This document shows positions 13,542 through 62,621 of a DNA stretch of 64,000 bases, one piece after another. Source of the stretch: an uncultured Bacteroidales bacterium (lineage in GTDB: Bacteria; Bacteroidota; Bacteroidia; Bacteroidales; UBA11471). The first letter of the stretch is position 1. Each line of letters starts with the position of its first letter. A program made the translations under genes and the position numbers. Under the pieces are notes generated by a model. It was not told the DNA's origin and ran no database searches. It saw only the letters and a program-made list of their open reading frames with translations. The DNA is taken from the NCBI GenBank assembly GCA_944325415.1, contig CALUZW010000004.1, forward strand, positions 1-64,000, read 5' to 3'.

Positions 13542-14633
13542 ATGACTTTCTTCTCCAAAACCTATCGGATACTGGCTCTGGCCATAAACCTCGTGGCAGG
13601 CGGGCTGCTGCTCATATCGGCATACAGTTACCTCTTTCCACCCGACCGGTTCCTGTTTCCGCTCTTCTTCACGCTGGCCTTTCCGGCCTTTTTCTTCGTA
13701 GAGTGCCTGCTGCTCCTGCAAGTATTTATACGGCCACGAAAATACGTCCTGTTTCCCCTCGCATTCCTGCTGCTGTCGTTTCATGCGGTACAGAACTACT
13801 TTCCGATGCACTTCGGCGGGAAAGACAACGGCGAGAAGAAAATCGTTCTGCTCACCTACAACATACAGAGTTTCGGACAGGCCCGTGCCACCAACGGAGG
13901 GAAAAGCAACACTCTTCTCGACCTGCTGCGCGACAGCGGCGCCGACATCATCTGCCTGCAAGAGTACAGCACGGGAAGGCTGTCGCAAAAGGCCATAAAC
14001 AGGATACTCTCGGACTACCCCTACCGGCATGTGTTCAAACCCTCGGCATGGGACTCGGGCATCGCCTGCTACTCCAAATACCCAATCAGGAAAACCGAGA
14101 CCATACCCTTTGACAACTCGCAGAACAATGCCTGCCTCTACCAGTTCGACATCGACGGCAAGCGGCTGACACTCATCAACTGCCACCTCGAATCGAACCA
14201 CCTCGAACCCGACGACAAGGAGTTGTACGAACAAATTGCCAAGCACCCCACACAAACGACCGAGCTGCTGCCCGCCGCCAAAGACAAGCTGCTGAAAAAA
14301 CTCGCCCGCGCCGGACGGATTCGCGCCCAGCAGGCCCGCACCATACGCAACATCGCCGACAAGATTCCGGGAGCCGTCGTCATCTGCGGCGACTTCAACG
14401 ACACGCCCCAGTCCTATACCTACGAGACCATACGGGGCGACTTCGACGATGCCTACGTCGCCACCGGATTCGGCCCGGGCATCACCTACAACGAGTCGGG
14501 GCTCTGGTTCCGCATCGACCACATCCTGCACAACGATGCCCTGCACGCCGTCGACAGCCGCGTCGTTCGCCAAAAATGTTCCGACCACTATCCCATGCAG
14601 GCCACCCTGCAATGGGAGGCCGAAAATGATTAG
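13542..14633 (+). CDS. Membrane-anchored endonuclease/exonuclease/phosphatase-family protein
   Basis: The 363-residue product has three hydrophobic segments in the first about 90 residues, then a DNase I-like (EEP) domain: LLTYNIQSF, IICLQEYS (catalytic Glu), INCHLESNHL, VICGDFNDTP (Asp/Asn) and CSDHYPMQATL with the catalytic His. All key acidic residues and the terminal SDHxP motif are present. Family members cut DNA, phosphodiesters or inositol phosphates; the substrate cannot be inferred. It follows the second rhomboid gene by 6 bases, hence the same operon. Confidence 0.88.
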   Translation: MTFFSKTYRILALAINLVAGGLLLISAYSYLFPPDRFLFPLFFTLAFPAFFFVECLLLLQVFIRPRKYVLFPLAFLLLSFHAVQNYFPMHFGGKDNGEKKIVLLTYNIQSFGQARATNGGKSNTLLDLLRDSGADIICLQEYSTGRLSQKAINRILSDYPYRHVFKPSAWDSGIACYSKYPIRKTETIPFDNSQNNACLYQFDIDGKRLTLINCHLESNHLEPDDKELYEQIAKHPTQTTELLPAAKDKLLKKLARAGRIRAQQARTIRNIADKIPGAVVICGDFNDTPQSYTYETIRGDFDDAYVATGFGPGITYNESGLWFRIDHILHNDALHAVDSRVVRQKCSDHYPMQATLQWEAEND

Positions 14634-14651
14634 CGAAATTTTTCCTTAATA

Positions 14652-14683
14652 TTTGCATACAAATGTACATTCGATTAATTTTG
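14652..14683 (+). promoter_or_regulatory. Promoter of frdCAB
   Basis: TTTG (14652-14655), 20 bases, TAATTTTG (14676-14683), a full match. A leader of about 65 bases is predicted before frdC. Confidence 0.82.
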
Positions 14684-14754
14684 TGGCTTCAAAAAGATGG
14701 TTCAATAGGCAACATATTATAAGACAAATACTAACTCCAAAAAACTCAAATCTT

Positions 14755-15417
14755 ATGTGGTTATTAAACTCATCAATCGGGAAAAAGGTGGTGATGAGCC
14801 TCACCGGTCTTTTTCTTATTCTGTTCCTGACATTCCACATGTCGATGAACCTCGTGGCCATCTTCTCGGCCGAAGGGTACAATGCCGTGTGTGAATTCCT
14901 GGGAGCAAACTGGTATGCGCTGGCAGGAACCGCCGTCATCGCAGCAGGTGCCGTACTGCACATACTCTTTGCCTTGTGGCTGACCTACATCAACCGTCGC
15001 GCCCGCGGAAAAGACCGTTACAAAGTATCGGAACGCCCCAAAGAGGTAGAATGGGCCTCGCAGAACATGCTCGTGCTGGGTATCATCGTTGTCATCGGCA
15101 TCGCCCTGCACCTCTACCAGTTCTGGTTCAAGATGCAGTTCAACGAAATTACCGGTATCCTTCCCGAAGTAAATCCCCACGACGGATACGCTCTCATTGC
15201 CGAGACTCTGGGCAACCCCATCATGGCTGTTATCTACCTCGTGTGGTTTGCCGCCATCTGGTTCCACCTCACCCACGGATTCTGGAGCGCCATTCAAACC
15301 CTGGGCTGGAACAACAAAATATGGCTGTCGCGCTGGAAATGCATCTCCAACATCTACACGACCATTCTCTGCCTCGGATTTGCTGTGGTAGCCATTTACT
15401 TCGGTTTCATAGCATAA
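14755..15417 (+). CDS. frdC: Fumarate reductase / succinate dehydrogenase cytochrome b subunit
   Basis: Single-subunit diheme membrane anchor of the menaquinone-linked complex (type B, as in Bacillus and Wolinella). The 220-residue product has five hydrophobic helices, with histidines suited to heme ligation at LTFHMSMNL (helix 1), VLHILFALW (helix 2), IALHLYQFW (helix 3) and WFHLTHGFW (helix 4). The ATG at 14755 gives the family start MWLLNSSIGKKVVMSLTG; the frame continues upstream through the promoter and is not used. It is the first gene of frdCAB. Confidence 0.93.
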   Translation: MWLLNSSIGKKVVMSLTGLFLILFLTFHMSMNLVAIFSAEGYNAVCEFLGANWYALAGTAVIAAGAVLHILFALWLTYINRRARGKDRYKVSERPKEVEWASQNMLVLGIIVVIGIALHLYQFWFKMQFNEITGILPEVNPHDGYALIAETLGNPIMAVIYLVWFAAIWFHLTHGFWSAIQTLGWNNKIWLSRWKCISNIYTTILCLGFAVVAIYFGFIA

Positions 15418-57476: not shown

Positions 57477-57509
57477 TTTCCCAAATAACAAAATTTATTT
57501 CTACCTTTG
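57477..57509 (+). promoter_or_regulatory. Promoter of the receiver/ATP-grasp gene
   Basis: TTTC (57477-57480), 21 bases, TACCTTTG (57502-57509). Confidence 0.6.
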
Positions 57510-57589
57510 AAAGAGACTAACTCCATCAGGAAATAAAAAAGATGGGCCGGCCCACGGTCAGGCCTTCCCGGCGACGAACAACGATGGTT

Positions 57590-60553
57590 ATGGATTTACA
57601 GAACAACATCAAACAACTCTATCTCAAAGATACCTCTTTTGCCAACCTCATGCAGAAACGCATCTTCAACGTGCTGCTGGTTGCCTCCTACTACGATGCG
57701 TTCATACTCGAAGAAGACGGCCGCGTCGAGGAGCAGATATTCTTTGAATACACCTCGCTCAACCTGAGTTCGCCTCCCCGCGTAACCCAAGTAAACAACC
57801 TCGAAGATGCCTTCAAGGAGCTGTCGACCAAACGGTTTGACCTCATCATCGCCATACCCGATGCCGAACACAGCCAGACCTACGAAAAGGCCAAGGAGAT
57901 AAAGCACCACTACCCCGACATACCCATCGTGCTGCTCACCCCCTTCGCCCGGGAGGTATCGCGGCGACTCGAAAAAGAGGACCTCAGCGGTATCGACTAC
58001 GTGTTCAGCTGGCTGGGAAATACCGACCTGCTGCTGGCTATCATCAAGTTGCTTGAAGACGAAATGAACATCGAAGAAGACACCAAGTCGGGCGTGCAGA
58101 TTATCATGCTGGTCGAAGACTCGGTGCGCTTCTACTCCTCGATACTGCCCCACCTCTACAAGTTCGTGCTGAAACAGTCGCAAATATTCTCGACCGAGGC
58201 CCTCAACGAGCACGAACAGATGCTGCGCATGCGCGGGCGGCCAAAAATAAAACTGGCCCGCTCCTACGAAGAGGCCATGGCCATGTATCAGAAATATGCC
58301 AACAACATGCTGGGCATCATCTCCGACGTATCGTTCATGCACGAGGGGCAGAAAGATGCCAAGGCCGGACTGAAATTCTGCGCATACGTGCGGCAGAAAG
58401 ACCCGTTCATACCCCTCATCATCGAATCGTCCGACACCGAAAACGCCGAAGGCGCCGCCGCCCTCAACGCCTGCTTCCTCGACAAGAACTCCAAGAAGCT
58501 GCCGGTCGACCTGCGCAATGCCATCATGCGCAACTTCGGATTCGGCGATTTCGAGTTTATCAACCCCGAGACCGGAGAGGTGATACTGCGCATCAAGGAG
58601 CTCAAAGACCTGCAAAAAAACATTCTCACCATACCCGCCGAATCGCTGCTGTACCACGCCTCGCGCAACCACATATCGCGATGGCTCTACTCGCGGGCGC
58701 TCTTCCCGCTGGCCGAGTTTATCAGGCGGCGATGGCCCCACAATCTCGAAGAGCTGCCCGAGATACGGCAGGAGATACTCGACGCCATCGTTACCTACCG
58801 CAAGATGAAAAACCGCGGTGTGGTAGCCATATTCGAGCGTAACCGGTTTGACAAATACTCCAACTTCGCCCGCATAGGCCAAGGGTCGCTGGGCGGAAAA
58901 GGGCGCGGCCTGGCCTTCATCGACTCACTCATCAAGCGCCACCCCGTACTCGAAGATTACGAAGGCGTGAGCGTATCGGTGCCCAAGACCGTTGTACTCT
59001 GCACCGACATCTTCGACGAATTCATGGAGAGCAACAACCTCTACCAGGTGGCCCTCTCCGACCTGCCCGACGAGGAAATCCTGCAACACTTTCTCGACGC
59101 CACCCTGCCCGAACGCCTCAAAGACGACATACTGGCCTTCTTCGAAGTGGTGGGCCGCCCCATCGCCGTGCGCTCGTCGAGCCTGCTCGAAGACTCGCAC
59201 TACCAGCCCTTCGCTGGTGTATACTCGACCTACATGATACCCTATCTCGACGACCACGAAGAGATGTACCGCATGCTCGCAGCAGCCGTAAAAGGGGTAT
59301 ATGCCTCGGTATTCTACTCCGACAGCAAAGCCTACATGACCGCCACCTCCAACGTCATCGACCAGGAGAAGATGGCCATCATTCTGCAAGAGGTGGTGGG
59401 CACCCAGTACGGCGACCGCTACTACCCCTCATTCGCCGGTGTGGGACGCTCGCTCAACTACTACCCCATCAACGACGAAAAGGCCGAAGACGGCGTCGTC
59501 GACATCGCCGTGGGGTTGGGAAAATACATCGTCGACGGCGGACGCAGCCTGCGCTTCTCGCCCCGACACCCCAACAAGGTATTGCAGACCAGCACCCTCG
59601 ACCTCGCCCTGCGCGACACGCAGACCCGCTTCTACGCCCTCGACCTGAAAAACATACAGGCCCATTGCGAGGTCGACGACAGCTTCAACCTCCTGCGGCT
59701 CTCGATACGCGATGCCGAGGCCGACAACTCCCTGCGCGGCATGGTGTCGACATTCGACCCCTACGATCAGGTAATCCGCGACGGCTACTACGAGGGGGGA
59801 CGGAAAGTCGTAACCTTTGCCAACATACTGCAACACAACGCCTTCCCGCTATCGCCGCTACTCGAAATGATGTTACAGTTCGGCTCGCACGACATGGGCC
59901 GGCACGTCGAGATAGAATTTGCCGGCATACTGCCCAACAGCCAGCATCCCCACGGAGCCCTCTACTGGTTGCAGATACGCCCCATTGTCGACACCAAAGA
60001 GATGCGTGACGACGAAATCGACGAAGTCGACAACAAGGAGCTGTTGCTGAAAACCTCGTCGGCACTGGGACACGGAGTCATGACCGACCTGCACCATGTC
60101 ATCTACGTCAAGAGCGAAGGCTTCATGTCGTCGAACAATTCGCTCATCGCCCGCGAAATAGAGAAAATCAACAAGACATTTCTCGACCGGGGAGAAAACT
60201 ACATACTCATAGGCCCCGGCCGCTGGGGGTCGAGCGACACCGCCCTGGGCATACCGGTCAAGTGGCCTCACATCTCGGCCGCCAGACTCATCGTCGAAAC
60301 GGCCCTGTCGAGCTACTTTATCGAGCCAAGCCAGGGTACCCATTTCTTCCAGAACCTCACCTCTTTCGGTGTAGGCTACTTCACCCTCAATCCCCAGGTC
60401 AAAGACTGCATCTACGACGAGGAGTTCCTCAACCGGCAAGAGGCCGTGCAGGAGACCCAATTCCTGAGAGTGGTGCGGTTTGACCAGCCGCTGACCGTGA
60501 AAATCAACGGGAAGAAGAGTGTGGGAATCGTCATCAAACCCTCAGAAACATAA
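57590..60553 (+). CDS. Receiver-receiver-PPDK-type ATP-grasp hybrid protein
   Basis: A 987-residue soluble protein. Two response-regulator-like domains come first: about 24-160 (FNVLLVASYYDAF, FDLIIAIPDAEH) and about 168-330 (IIMLVEDSVRFY, and GIISDVSFMHEG with an Asp near 244 at the phospho-acceptor place). Then comes an ATP-grasp domain of the pyruvate phosphate dikinase/PEP synthase N-terminal type: GQGSLGGKGRGLAF (near 432), VRSSSLLEDS and FAGVYSTYM (about 526-545), and GPGRWGSSD (near 876). The phospho-histidine and PEP-binding domains of true PEP synthase are missing, so it is not that enzyme. Start ATGGAT at 57590 or ATGGTT at 57584; an ATG at 57542 is also in frame. A coiled-coil gene follows by 14 bases. 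Confidence 0.82.
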   Translation: MDLQNNIKQLYLKDTSFANLMQKRIFNVLLVASYYDAFILEEDGRVEEQIFFEYTSLNLSSPPRVTQVNNLEDAFKELSTKRFDLIIAIPDAEHSQTYEKAKEIKHHYPDIPIVLLTPFAREVSRRLEKEDLSGIDYVFSWLGNTDLLLAIIKLLEDEMNIEEDTKSGVQIIMLVEDSVRFYSSILPHLYKFVLKQSQIFSTEALNEHEQMLRMRGRPKIKLARSYEEAMAMYQKYANNMLGIISDVSFMHEGQKDAKAGLKFCAYVRQKDPFIPLIIESSDTENAEGAAALNACFLDKNSKKLPVDLRNAIMRNFGFGDFEFINPETGEVILRIKELKDLQKNILTIPAESLLYHASRNHISRWLYSRALFPLAEFIRRRWPHNLEELPEIRQEILDAIVTYRKMKNRGVVAIFERNRFDKYSNFARIGQGSLGGKGRGLAFIDSLIKRHPVLEDYEGVSVSVPKTVVLCTDIFDEFMESNNLYQVALSDLPDEEILQHFLDATLPERLKDDILAFFEVVGRPIAVRSSSLLEDSHYQPFAGVYSTYMIPYLDDHEEMYRMLAAAVKGVYASVFYSDSKAYMTATSNVIDQEKMAIILQEVVGTQYGDRYYPSFAGVGRSLNYYPINDEKAEDGVVDIAVGLGKYIVDGGRSLRFSPRHPNKVLQTSTLDLALRDTQTRFYALDLKNIQAHCEVDDSFNLLRLSIRDAEADNSLRGMVSTFDPYDQVIRDGYYEGGRKVVTFANILQHNAFPLSPLLEMMLQFGSHDMGRHVEIEFAGILPNSQHPHGALYWLQIRPIVDTKEMRDDEIDEVDNKELLLKTSSALGHGVMTDLHHVIYVKSEGFMSSNNSLIAREIEKINKTFLDRGENYILIGPGRWGSSDTALGIPVKWPHISAARLIVETALSSYFIEPSQGTHFFQNLTSFGVGYFTLNPQVKDCIYDEEFLNRQEAVQETQFLRVVRFDQPLTVKINGKKSVGIVIKPSET

Positions 60554-60567
60554 CCCCCATTACGGCC

Positions 60568-61578
60568 ATGAGTTTTGTAAAATCGATACTGCAACAGTGG
60601 CGGGAACGGAGCCTGAAAAGAAACGCTCCGGTGGCAGAAGAGCCCTTCTCCCCCGCAGACATTCCGGCCTGCGACACGGCCGAAGTGCACCTGCTCGAAG
60701 CACTCGCCCGGCAAATCAACGAGGCGGTGAACAACGGTATGACCATCTCGTCGCTCAACATCGAGACCACCTATGAACAACTGGCCGAAAGCCTCGACCG
60801 CTTCAAACAGGAATCGCTCAACACGGCCCGCAACGAAGTGTCGGAACAGTGGAGCGAAGAGGAGTCGCGACGCCTCGGCGAAATAAAAAACCTGCAAGGA
60901 CAGAACGCCGAACTCCAACAGCTTCTCAACGAATCGCAAAAACGGTATGCCGGCGCCGAACGCCTGCGCAAGACACTGAGCGAACGCATTCACGACCTCG
61001 AAAACCAGATAGTCGACCTGCGCAACGAGTACGAACGCGACATTGAAGAGAAACTGAGGCAAATCAACAAGATAAAAGCCCGTTCGCTGGGCCTCTCACC
61101 CGACGGGGAGTATGCCGCCGACAGCGAAAACAGCGCACCCACAACGAGTGCGACCGCCGGAGAGACGGAAGATATACCGCCTCTGGTGAGCGATGAAAAT
61201 GCGGAAGAGGAAAACGGAAACGCAGAAAAGATATTCGACTGCCGCAGCGTCGACGAAGGCGGCGAGAGCGACGATACGGTCGTGATAAAACACCGCTATG
61301 CCTCGCTCTATGCCAAACTCAACAAGGCACAGAACGCCTTGCACGAGCAGCGGAAAGAGAACCGCATCATCTTGAAACGGGACACCCGACACCGCCAACG
61401 TATAGAAGAGCTGCAAACACTCAACCAGTCGCTGCGGAAAGAGGTGCGACGACTGACCGACGAACTGGAACAGACCCTCGGCAAGAAGGGAAAGAAACCT
61501 TCGGCATCATCGCCCCGCACCACGGCACCGGGCCTTACTTCGCTGCTTTTCGAAGAGGACCCCGACAACAAGGAGTAA
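60568..61578 (+). CDS. Coiled-coil protein of unknown function
   Basis: A 336-residue hydrophilic protein without signal peptide. Two long heptad-rich stretches are visible (about 60-175 and 245-305, for example LRKTLSERIHDLENQIVDLR), separated by an acidic low-complexity linker (about 185-235) and ending in a basic then acidic tail. I do not recognise a family. It follows the receiver/ATP-grasp gene by 14 bases and should be co-expressed, so it may scaffold or be a target of that protein. Confidence 0.75.
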   Translation: MSFVKSILQQWRERSLKRNAPVAEEPFSPADIPACDTAEVHLLEALARQINEAVNNGMTISSLNIETTYEQLAESLDRFKQESLNTARNEVSEQWSEEESRRLGEIKNLQGQNAELQQLLNESQKRYAGAERLRKTLSERIHDLENQIVDLRNEYERDIEEKLRQINKIKARSLGLSPDGEYAADSENSAPTTSATAGETEDIPPLVSDENAEEENGNAEKIFDCRSVDEGGESDDTVVIKHRYASLYAKLNKAQNALHEQRKENRIILKRDTRHRQRIEELQTLNQSLRKEVRRLTDELEQTLGKKGKKPSASSPRTTAPGLTSLLFEEDPDNKE

Positions 61579-61731: not shown

Positions 61732-62019
61732 CTAATTCAGCAGTGTCGGCGGCACATCGGTATCGACATCAGGAGCCGAACGCTCCTCAATGACCATATC
61801 CATGACCTGACGCAGAAAACGCACCTGCGTCAACGGTAAACGCCGGGAGAGCGTTTCGATAAGAATGGCAAACTCTTCGGGCGTAAATGTCGCTCCTCCC
61901 GTGAGGCTGTGCGGCAGCTCCGCAAAAAATACGGCATAATTCACTCCTTCCTGTTCACAAATGTCGCCAAACGCATCAGCGGCCTTTTTTATTTCCTCAA
62001 TACTACTCTTACTTTTCAT
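61732..62019 (-). CDS. Small protein of unknown function
   Basis: A 95-residue acidic, mostly helical protein without signal peptide; TFTPEEFAILIETLSRRLP resembles no motif I can name. It faces away from the HTH gene across a 140-base AT-rich gap, and lacks a good promoter match. It is kept as a gene because the start, length and amino-acid use look natural, but it could be a chance frame. Confidence 0.55.
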   Translation of the reverse strand: MKSKSSIEEIKKAADAFGDICEQEGVNYAVFFAELPHSLTGGATFTPEEFAILIETLSRRLPLTQVRFLRQVMDMVIEERSAPDVDTDVPPTLLN

Positions 62020-62095
62020 ACCTCAGGCTGGTTACTGTTGATTATAATTTATATTATTCGTATCTTAGTAAAGGAAAAACCAAATAAATAGTCTT

Positions 62096-62125
62096 TTTGT
62101 TCACCAATAACAAAGATTATTTTTC
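62096..62125 (+). promoter_or_regulatory. Possible promoter of the HTH gene
   Basis: TTTG (62096-62099), 18 bases, TATTTTTC (62118-62125), one mismatch and slightly short spacing. Confidence 0.4.
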
Positions 62126-62159
62126 TATTCTCAGCACTCAAAAAAAACAATAACGCGTT

Positions 62160-62621
62160 ATGTCAAAGATTATCTATTCGGGAAACAAGTTCCGTGAATT
62201 TTTGTCGAGAAGAGGTATCACCTACCAAGAAGCATCGGCTTTTCTGGGCATTGACAAGAATACCATCGGGAAAGCTGTTCGCGGAGGAAATCTCAACATG
62301 AGTGTATTGCTTACCATCTGCAATAAGTATCATCTCGGTATTTCGGACTTCTTCGTTACCGAACCCGATAACGAAGAATCTACAACCCACGAAAATAGTT
62401 TCGAACCGACTTATCCCGAAACTTCACCAGCCCTTTCGACCGTAACAGAAGAGTTCGGAAGTTATAAAATTTCTAAAAAGCCATCTTTTTTATACGAGGA
62501 TTTCTTAGCCGCCAAAGACCAAGAAATTGCGTTGCTTCGAGAGATAAACGAGCTATACAAGAAACAAATCGAGATGTTGCAAGAGAAGATTCTCGAAAAC
62601 GGCAACAAGAACGATTTGTAA
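62160..62621 (+). CDS. HTH (XRE-like) protein with C-terminal coiled coil
   Basis: The 153-residue product has an N-terminal Cro/C1-like helix-turn-helix (about 8-62; FREFLSRRGITYQEASAFLG, then IDKNTIGKAVRGGNLNMS), a flexible Ser/Thr/Pro/Glu-rich linker, and a C-terminal coiled coil (about 115-147, LLREINELYKKQIEMLQEKI) that probably dimerises it. A DNA-binding regulator is likely; its target is unknown, and the divergent gene at 61732-62019 is the nearest candidate. The gene is AT-rich relative to most of the window. Confidence 0.8.
   Translation: MSKIIYSGNKFREFLSRRGITYQEASAFLGIDKNTIGKAVRGGNLNMSVLLTICNKYHLGISDFFVTEPDNEESTTHENSFEPTYPETSPALSTVTEEFGSYKISKKPSFLYEDFLAAKDQEIALLREINELYKKQIEMLQEKILENGNKNDL

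Follow-up and report, generated by a model that had tools for sequence, protein, structure and literature searches.

The window, a stretch of 64,000 nucleotides of genomic DNA, encodes a 1003-aa protein that we read, with a probability of about 50%, as a receiver-gated dikinase of the PPDK type that regulates glutamate dehydrogenase (GDH) by phosphotransfer. We consider a functional tie between the family and GDH very probable. The gene and the neighboring coding sequence, both on the forward strand, have the following features.

57502..57509, + strand: TACCTTTG, a candidate promoter-like box that resembles the Bacteroidota -7 box TAnnTTTG (consensus match only)
57542..60553, + strand: gene for the receiver-receiver-ATP-grasp-His protein, 1003 aa, start possibly 57584 or 57590
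57668..58045, + strand: receiver 1 (residues 43-168), a pseudo-receiver in which the phospho-acceptor Asp is missing
58091..58537, + strand: receiver 2 (residues 184-332), with Glu192/Asp193, acceptor Asp262 (codon 58325-58327), Ser296 and Lys315
58550..58813, + strand: helical linker (residues 337-424), resembling DUF5752 in homologues (E 5e-4 to 0.01)
58886..60031, + strand: PPDK_N-type ATP-grasp domain (residues 449-830), PF01326, E 7.7e-41
60038..60550, + strand: C-terminal domain (residues 833-1003), predicted divergent phospho-histidine swivelling domain, with invariant His934 at 60341-60343
60568..61578, + strand: gene for a coiled-coil protein, 336 aa, its operonic adjacency limited to the window's genus and some members of related families

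The original prediction, made from the sequence of the window, had described two open reading frames 14 bases apart, the second encoding a soluble coiled-coil protein, and this layout was confirmed. Conservation of the 1003-aa reading frame extends across the order and into other classes of the phylum, far beyond chance. Since its homologues start around residue 20, Met15 (57584) or Met17 (57590) may be the true start instead of the codon at 57542. Of 60 relatives, mostly a single genome for each family in the order, 54 carry the gene; so do 49 of the 296 genomes in the phylum sample, and 9 of these 49 have only a 1060-aa relative.

The tie to GDH was computed from gene linkage, co-occurrence and co-divergence. 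Among the 16 homologues in 20-kb loci of other classes, 15 have a GDH open reading frame no more than 500 bp away and all 16 have one no more than 6 kb away. The chance expectation for a GDH within 500 bp is about 0.2%, on the assumption of three GDH genes within 3.5 Mb. Family and GDH genes in these loci share a strand and are typically 7 to 320 bp apart, often forming two GDH-family gene pairs with an NAD-type GDH after them. The original prediction had proposed a survey of nearby histidine kinases: some of the loci have genes for a PAS/HisKA_3 kinase and for a response regulator of the LuxR type between the pairs, and an ammonium transporter gene lies beside the family gene in one. Among Bacteroides, Phocaeicola, Parabacteroides and Tannerellaceae, GDH is found within 6 kb of 29 of 38 homologues; these linked loci are mostly divergent, with 70 to 450 bp between the genes, and several have a second GDH downstream. 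Several loci from Bacteroides and Parabacteroides place the family gene itself 1.3 to 5.6 kb downstream of one GDH.

Co-occurrence points the same way. In the 296-genome phylum sample, an NADP-type GDH was detected in 39/39 genomes with the full-length protein versus 56/256 others (Fisher p 1e-22, with relatedness ignored). The two proteins have also diverged together, as the mirror correlation of 29 adjacent protein/GDH pairs was 0.79 (r; 0 of 5000 permutations) and the true pairing of paralogues with GDHs ranked 1 of 128 within-genome swaps. Every swap lowered the correlation, indicating that the GDH-family gene pairs were duplicated and diverged as units. The dependency is not absolute, since co-occurrence within the order fails both ways: some members have the protein and no detected NADP-type GDH (G015, G048 and G051), and others have a GDH and not the protein (G009, G053 and G054). 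Nor is the protein needed for GDH in general, because only 3 of 46 GDH-containing genomes of the window's class outside the order in the phylum sample possess it.

Neither the window's genus nor Muribaculaceae has the family gene next to GDH, and the two GDHs of this genome sit on other contigs. The nearest relative with a different layout is Coprobacter sp. HAN010 (L034), whose locus is syntenic with the window and has GDH adjacent, in the order GDH, family gene, coiled-coil gene and, further on, an 82-aa gene, an XRE gene and a second GDH. This small pair of 82-aa and XRE genes corresponds to window positions 61732-62621, and the window locus is therefore plausibly derived from a GDH-flanked ancestor. 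The evidence for GDH as the partner conserved across the phylum falls outside the window and so was out of view in the original prediction.

PF01326 matches the ATP-grasp domain with 140.9 bits against a Pfam cut-off of 27, and the catalytic motifs common to PPDK and PEP synthase (GGKG, VRSS, E-x-F and LQ-x-R) are present. Lys453, Arg544, Glu550, Asp551, Glu792 and Gln811 are invariant in 194/194 homologues, in an alignment that reaches down to about 30% identity. We take Lys453, Arg544, Glu792 and Gln811 to be the nucleotide-site residues of PPDK, that is, the GGKG Lys, VRSS Arg, EF Glu and LQxR Gln. When the whole predicted model was compared with known folds, the best structural match was rifampin phosphotransferase (RPH), with a Z score of 23.

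The C-terminal domain is probably a divergent phospho-histidine carrier, as judged from its predicted fold. The AlphaFold model of these approximately 170 residues has a pLDDT of 89.4 and a pTM of 0.89. When PDB chains were aligned to it with VIA-align, phospho-histidine domains ranked first and filled most of the top 15 rows. The top matches were PPDK 381-511, RPH 756-867 and EI-Ntr, with modest Z scores of 5.8 to 7.1 over 101 to 121 residues, and included the isolated NMR carrier domain of PPDK (2fm4). Lower rows held chaperonin apical domains and aconitase, which presumably belong to the same general swivelling fold class. Alignments of the full-length model to PPDK, PEP synthase and RPH pass through the His domain of each. 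Foldseek run on the C-terminal model alone gave no significant match (best E 0.014). His934 is invariant in 194/194 homologues, within the motif S-x-G-[ST]-H-F-F, and is placed by the model at the start of a helix, just after a strand. The catalytic His of PPDK likewise begins a helix that follows a strand; the PPDKs of the sampled genomes carry GGMTSHA. Neither PF00391 nor any other Pfam profile matched the C-terminal domain in any of 76 family members, and hhalign, run twice against the His domains of Bacteroidales PPDKs, gave no support for a His domain. It is thus on the phospho-His-like fold and the invariant His934, with sequence profiles giving no support, that we infer a divergent carrier. 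The original prediction had asserted that a phospho-histidine domain was absent and had let its reading hang on that absence; this is probably wrong, since the fold lies nearest to phospho-histidine domains and His934 is invariant, so that such a domain appears to be present in the C-terminal part although sequence profiles are silent.

Receiver similarity was weak in a Pfam profile search of the 1003-aa protein; in the predicted fold, model residues 172-322 align clearly to REC domains (Z 13 to 15.7). In receiver 2 the acidic pair, acceptor Asp, Ser/Thr and Lys that define REC domains are all present, and a conserved long insert follows the first helix. Glu192, Asp193, Asp262, Ser296 and Lys315 are kept almost without exception in all receiver-bearing homologues, which comprised 117 orthologues from Bacteroidales, 19 long paralogues and 44 proteins from other classes. 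The position of the acceptor in receiver 1 is occupied by Ile, Met or Thr in the aligned homologues, which makes it a pseudo-receiver. Of the two receiver-like domains originally described, the second, with its Glu-Asp pair and phospho-acceptor Asp, therefore holds as a complete site, and the first is degenerate.

Two further forms lack receivers. A 580-aa form consists of the ATP-grasp and predicted His domains only, and a 1060-aa form carries a C-terminal nucleotidyltransferase domain; in most of the loci read, each of the two comes after an NAD-type GDH. Because linkage to GDH persists in these receiver-less forms, the minimal GDH-linked unit is the ATP-grasp domain with the predicted His domain, and the receivers are an added input.

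These features are consistent with a phosphotransfer-type enzyme under receiver control, and on this point the domain make-up supports what had been proposed from the window. Four elements enter the following scheme conditionally: what the His domain does, which molecule accepts the phosphoryl group, which way the effect runs and what part the receiver plays in GDH control. The ATP-grasp domain would bind ATP, and a phosphoryl group would pass to His934 on the swivelling C-terminal domain. This domain would then swing and hand the phosphoryl group to an acceptor, most likely GDH, reversibly altering GDH activity. Phosphorylation of Asp262, by a histidine kinase or from His934, may open or close the swing, coupling ammonia assimilation to the nitrogen state.

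Such an enzyme would share parts with several known systems. RPH combines a PPDK-type ATP-grasp domain with a phospho-His domain and has no PEP barrel, but it carries a rifampin-binding domain between the two, lacks receivers and has no known link to GDH. No such middle domain was found in the 1003-aa protein, where the C-terminal domain comes directly after the ATP-grasp domain. PPDK and PEP synthase show the order of ATP-grasp and His domains that is predicted for the 1003-aa protein, and they share its catalytic motifs; the 1003-aa protein lacks the PEP/pyruvate barrel, has a putative His domain too divergent for PF00391 and has gained receivers. Enzyme I and EI-Ntr, the latter a structural neighbor of the C-terminal domain, phosphorylate a protein from a swivelling His domain, but Enzyme I uses PEP rather than ATP and has no ATP-grasp domain. 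AceK, the isocitrate dehydrogenase kinase/phosphatase, is a dedicated regulator of one central dehydrogenase; it would be a functional analogue of a GDH regulator, although its fold and chemistry are unrelated.

The match to RPH can also be read metabolically. The protein might pass phosphate from ATP through His934 to a small molecule of glutamate/2-oxoglutarate metabolism, standing beside GDH in a pathway whose flux the receivers tune. To our knowledge, all characterized proteins with ATP-grasp and His domains and no PEP barrel (rifampin phosphotransferase and glucan water dikinase) act on small molecules or polymers, which favors this explanation. However, the ATP-grasp domain leads into the His domain with no separate domain for binding a substrate in between, the 580-aa form has nothing but these two, and co-divergence with individual GDH paralogues fits protein-protein action better. 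We therefore regard a metabolic dikinase as rather unlikely.

The complete receiver site in the same chain, together with the histidine kinase and response regulator genes that adjoin some copies, would also suit a protein that supplies phosphoryl groups to its own receiver or to other two-component proteins (ATP to His934 to Asp262). It would then substitute for a histidine kinase in a nitrogen regulon, and the GDH linkage would reflect shared regulation only. The receiver-less forms, still linked to GDH, indicate that the receiver is not the general acceptor, and we judge this explanation improbable.

The adjacent coiled-coil protein had originally been proposed as the partner, as scaffold or substrate. 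A tight operon with a 14-bp gap, seen in the window's genus and related families, is in keeping with a kinase that phosphorylates or is scaffolded by its neighbor. The pair is conserved in part: adjacency of the two genes is confined to the window's genus, Caccoplasma and some of the Muribaculaceae, and in the loci read from Bacteroides, Parabacteroides and other classes the coiled-coil gene is not beside the family gene. The length of the coiled-coil protein varies from 283 to 786 aa. Every uncut copy outside the window's genus ends in Q[ML]xL[FW] (QMSLF, QLSLF or QMKLW), copies cut by the end of a locus being left out of the count; the window's genus has lost this motif. Q[ML]xL[FW] is the consensus sequence of peptides that bind the sliding clamp, and QLSLF, QMSLF or QMDLF occurs close to the C terminus of Y-family polymerases from this order. 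Such a clamp-binding-like ending points to a different partner. The limited distribution and the clamp-binding-like ending together make the coiled coil an unlikely general substrate of the kinase, and its distribution rules it out as a general partner. Accordingly, the clade-limited adjacency does not support the original pairing, and the chance that the 1003-aa protein is a kinase for, or is scaffolded by, this neighbor is very small.

An ordinary or decayed PEP synthase or PPDK, suggested by low-scoring NCBIfam matches, can be dismissed, since no Pfam match to a PEP/pyruvate-binding barrel was found and the chain ends about 170 residues past the ATP-grasp domain, scores of 30 to 60 bits fall far below the NCBIfam equivalog cut-offs for PPDK and PEP synthase (598 to 1350), and the same organism has a separate PPDK-type protein with a PF00391 phospho-His domain on another contig (C2). 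A sequence search of solved structures gave a marginal PEP synthase match only. This identity is already contradicted by the domain architecture. The original description of a PPDK-type ATP-grasp protein without a PEP domain is thus upheld, and its warning that annotation as PEP synthase would mislead is borne out. The family is usually mistaken for a metabolic enzyme.

Older work on Bacteroides GDH offers a lead. A 1987 paper reportedly described reversible inactivation of GDH in B. fragilis, and GDH activity in Escherichia coli reportedly depended on a downstream segment of 3 kb supplied in trans. A title cited in PMC4539542 (Baggio and Morrison 1996) states that trans-acting gene(s) downstream of gdhA affect GDH activity in B. 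thetaiotaomicron. The likeness is that of a nearby gene affecting GDH, and the family gene is near GDH too; we treat their identity as a lead only. BT1971 is a catalase, and the Bacteroides loci read showed no obvious catalase gene between GDH and the family gene. The fullest form of our proposal is a new class of protein-modifying enzyme, a PPDK-type dikinase that would phosphorylate GDH and switch it reversibly through a divergent phospho-His carrier under a receiver gate. This enzyme would be the chief post-translational control on ammonia assimilation across Bacteroidota and would also be the trans-acting factor that affects GDH in Bacteroides. We hold this tentative reading to be possible rather than probable.

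GDH is the enzyme of ammonia uptake in many gut and environmental bacteria, and Bacteroides and its relatives assimilate ammonia largely through it. We know of no previous assignment of PPDK-type phosphotransfer to enzyme regulation, and the 1003-aa protein is probably a new variant of the PEP-utilizer superfamily, tied to GDH. His934, Asp262 and Lys453 are named residues for assay. If this family is the trans-acting factor reported for Bacteroides GDH, a widely conserved and misannotated protein would link two-component signaling to a central enzyme, GDH, through PPDK-type phosphotransfer.

Receiver 2 of the main protein carries a long conserved insert, placed between the first helix and the second strand, and several of its residues are invariant in the Bacteroidales alignment. 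This and two further features are as follows.

58130-58309, plus strand: insert in receiver 2 (residues 197-256, around FSTEALNEHEQMLRMRGRPK).
61732-62621: small gene (minus strand) and XRE-type regulator (plus strand); in Coprobacter sp. HAN010 (L034), 14514-15358.
L149:2805-7723, also L150 and L151 (loci of homologues): 580-aa ATP-grasp-His gene and overlapping 1060-aa ATP-grasp-His gene.

A locus from a record titled Lachnospiraceae bacterium (L044) encodes a 66% identical Bacteroidales protein; the assembly is probably mislabelled or contaminated.

Order-level paralogues (L161, L163-L173, L177, and L179) bear one to four N-terminal repeats of ~110 residues each (ERLKEL..IN...PES.VARIxY...); these repeats look like a sensor domain. 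The proteins reach up to 1550 aa, in L173. The 1060-aa ATP-grasp-His protein ends in a nucleotidyltransferase domain (PF01909, seen in L149), and in L150 and L151 an NAD-type glutamate dehydrogenase precedes both genes.

The pairing of the small gene with the XRE-type regulator is kept in the Coprobacter relative; the small gene's 82-95-aa product has no family match.

Outside the window's genus, homologues of the coiled-coil protein (60568-61578, plus strand) begin with an amphipathic-looking MSFFKxLKRAFGF and end in Q[ML]xL[FW] (L009, L034-L052, L062, L064, L083, L090, and L094), which is the consensus for binding the bacterial sliding clamp. This motif is missing from the protein in the window's genus, which has lost it. 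In Muribaculaceae, this coiled-coil protein may bind the clamp.
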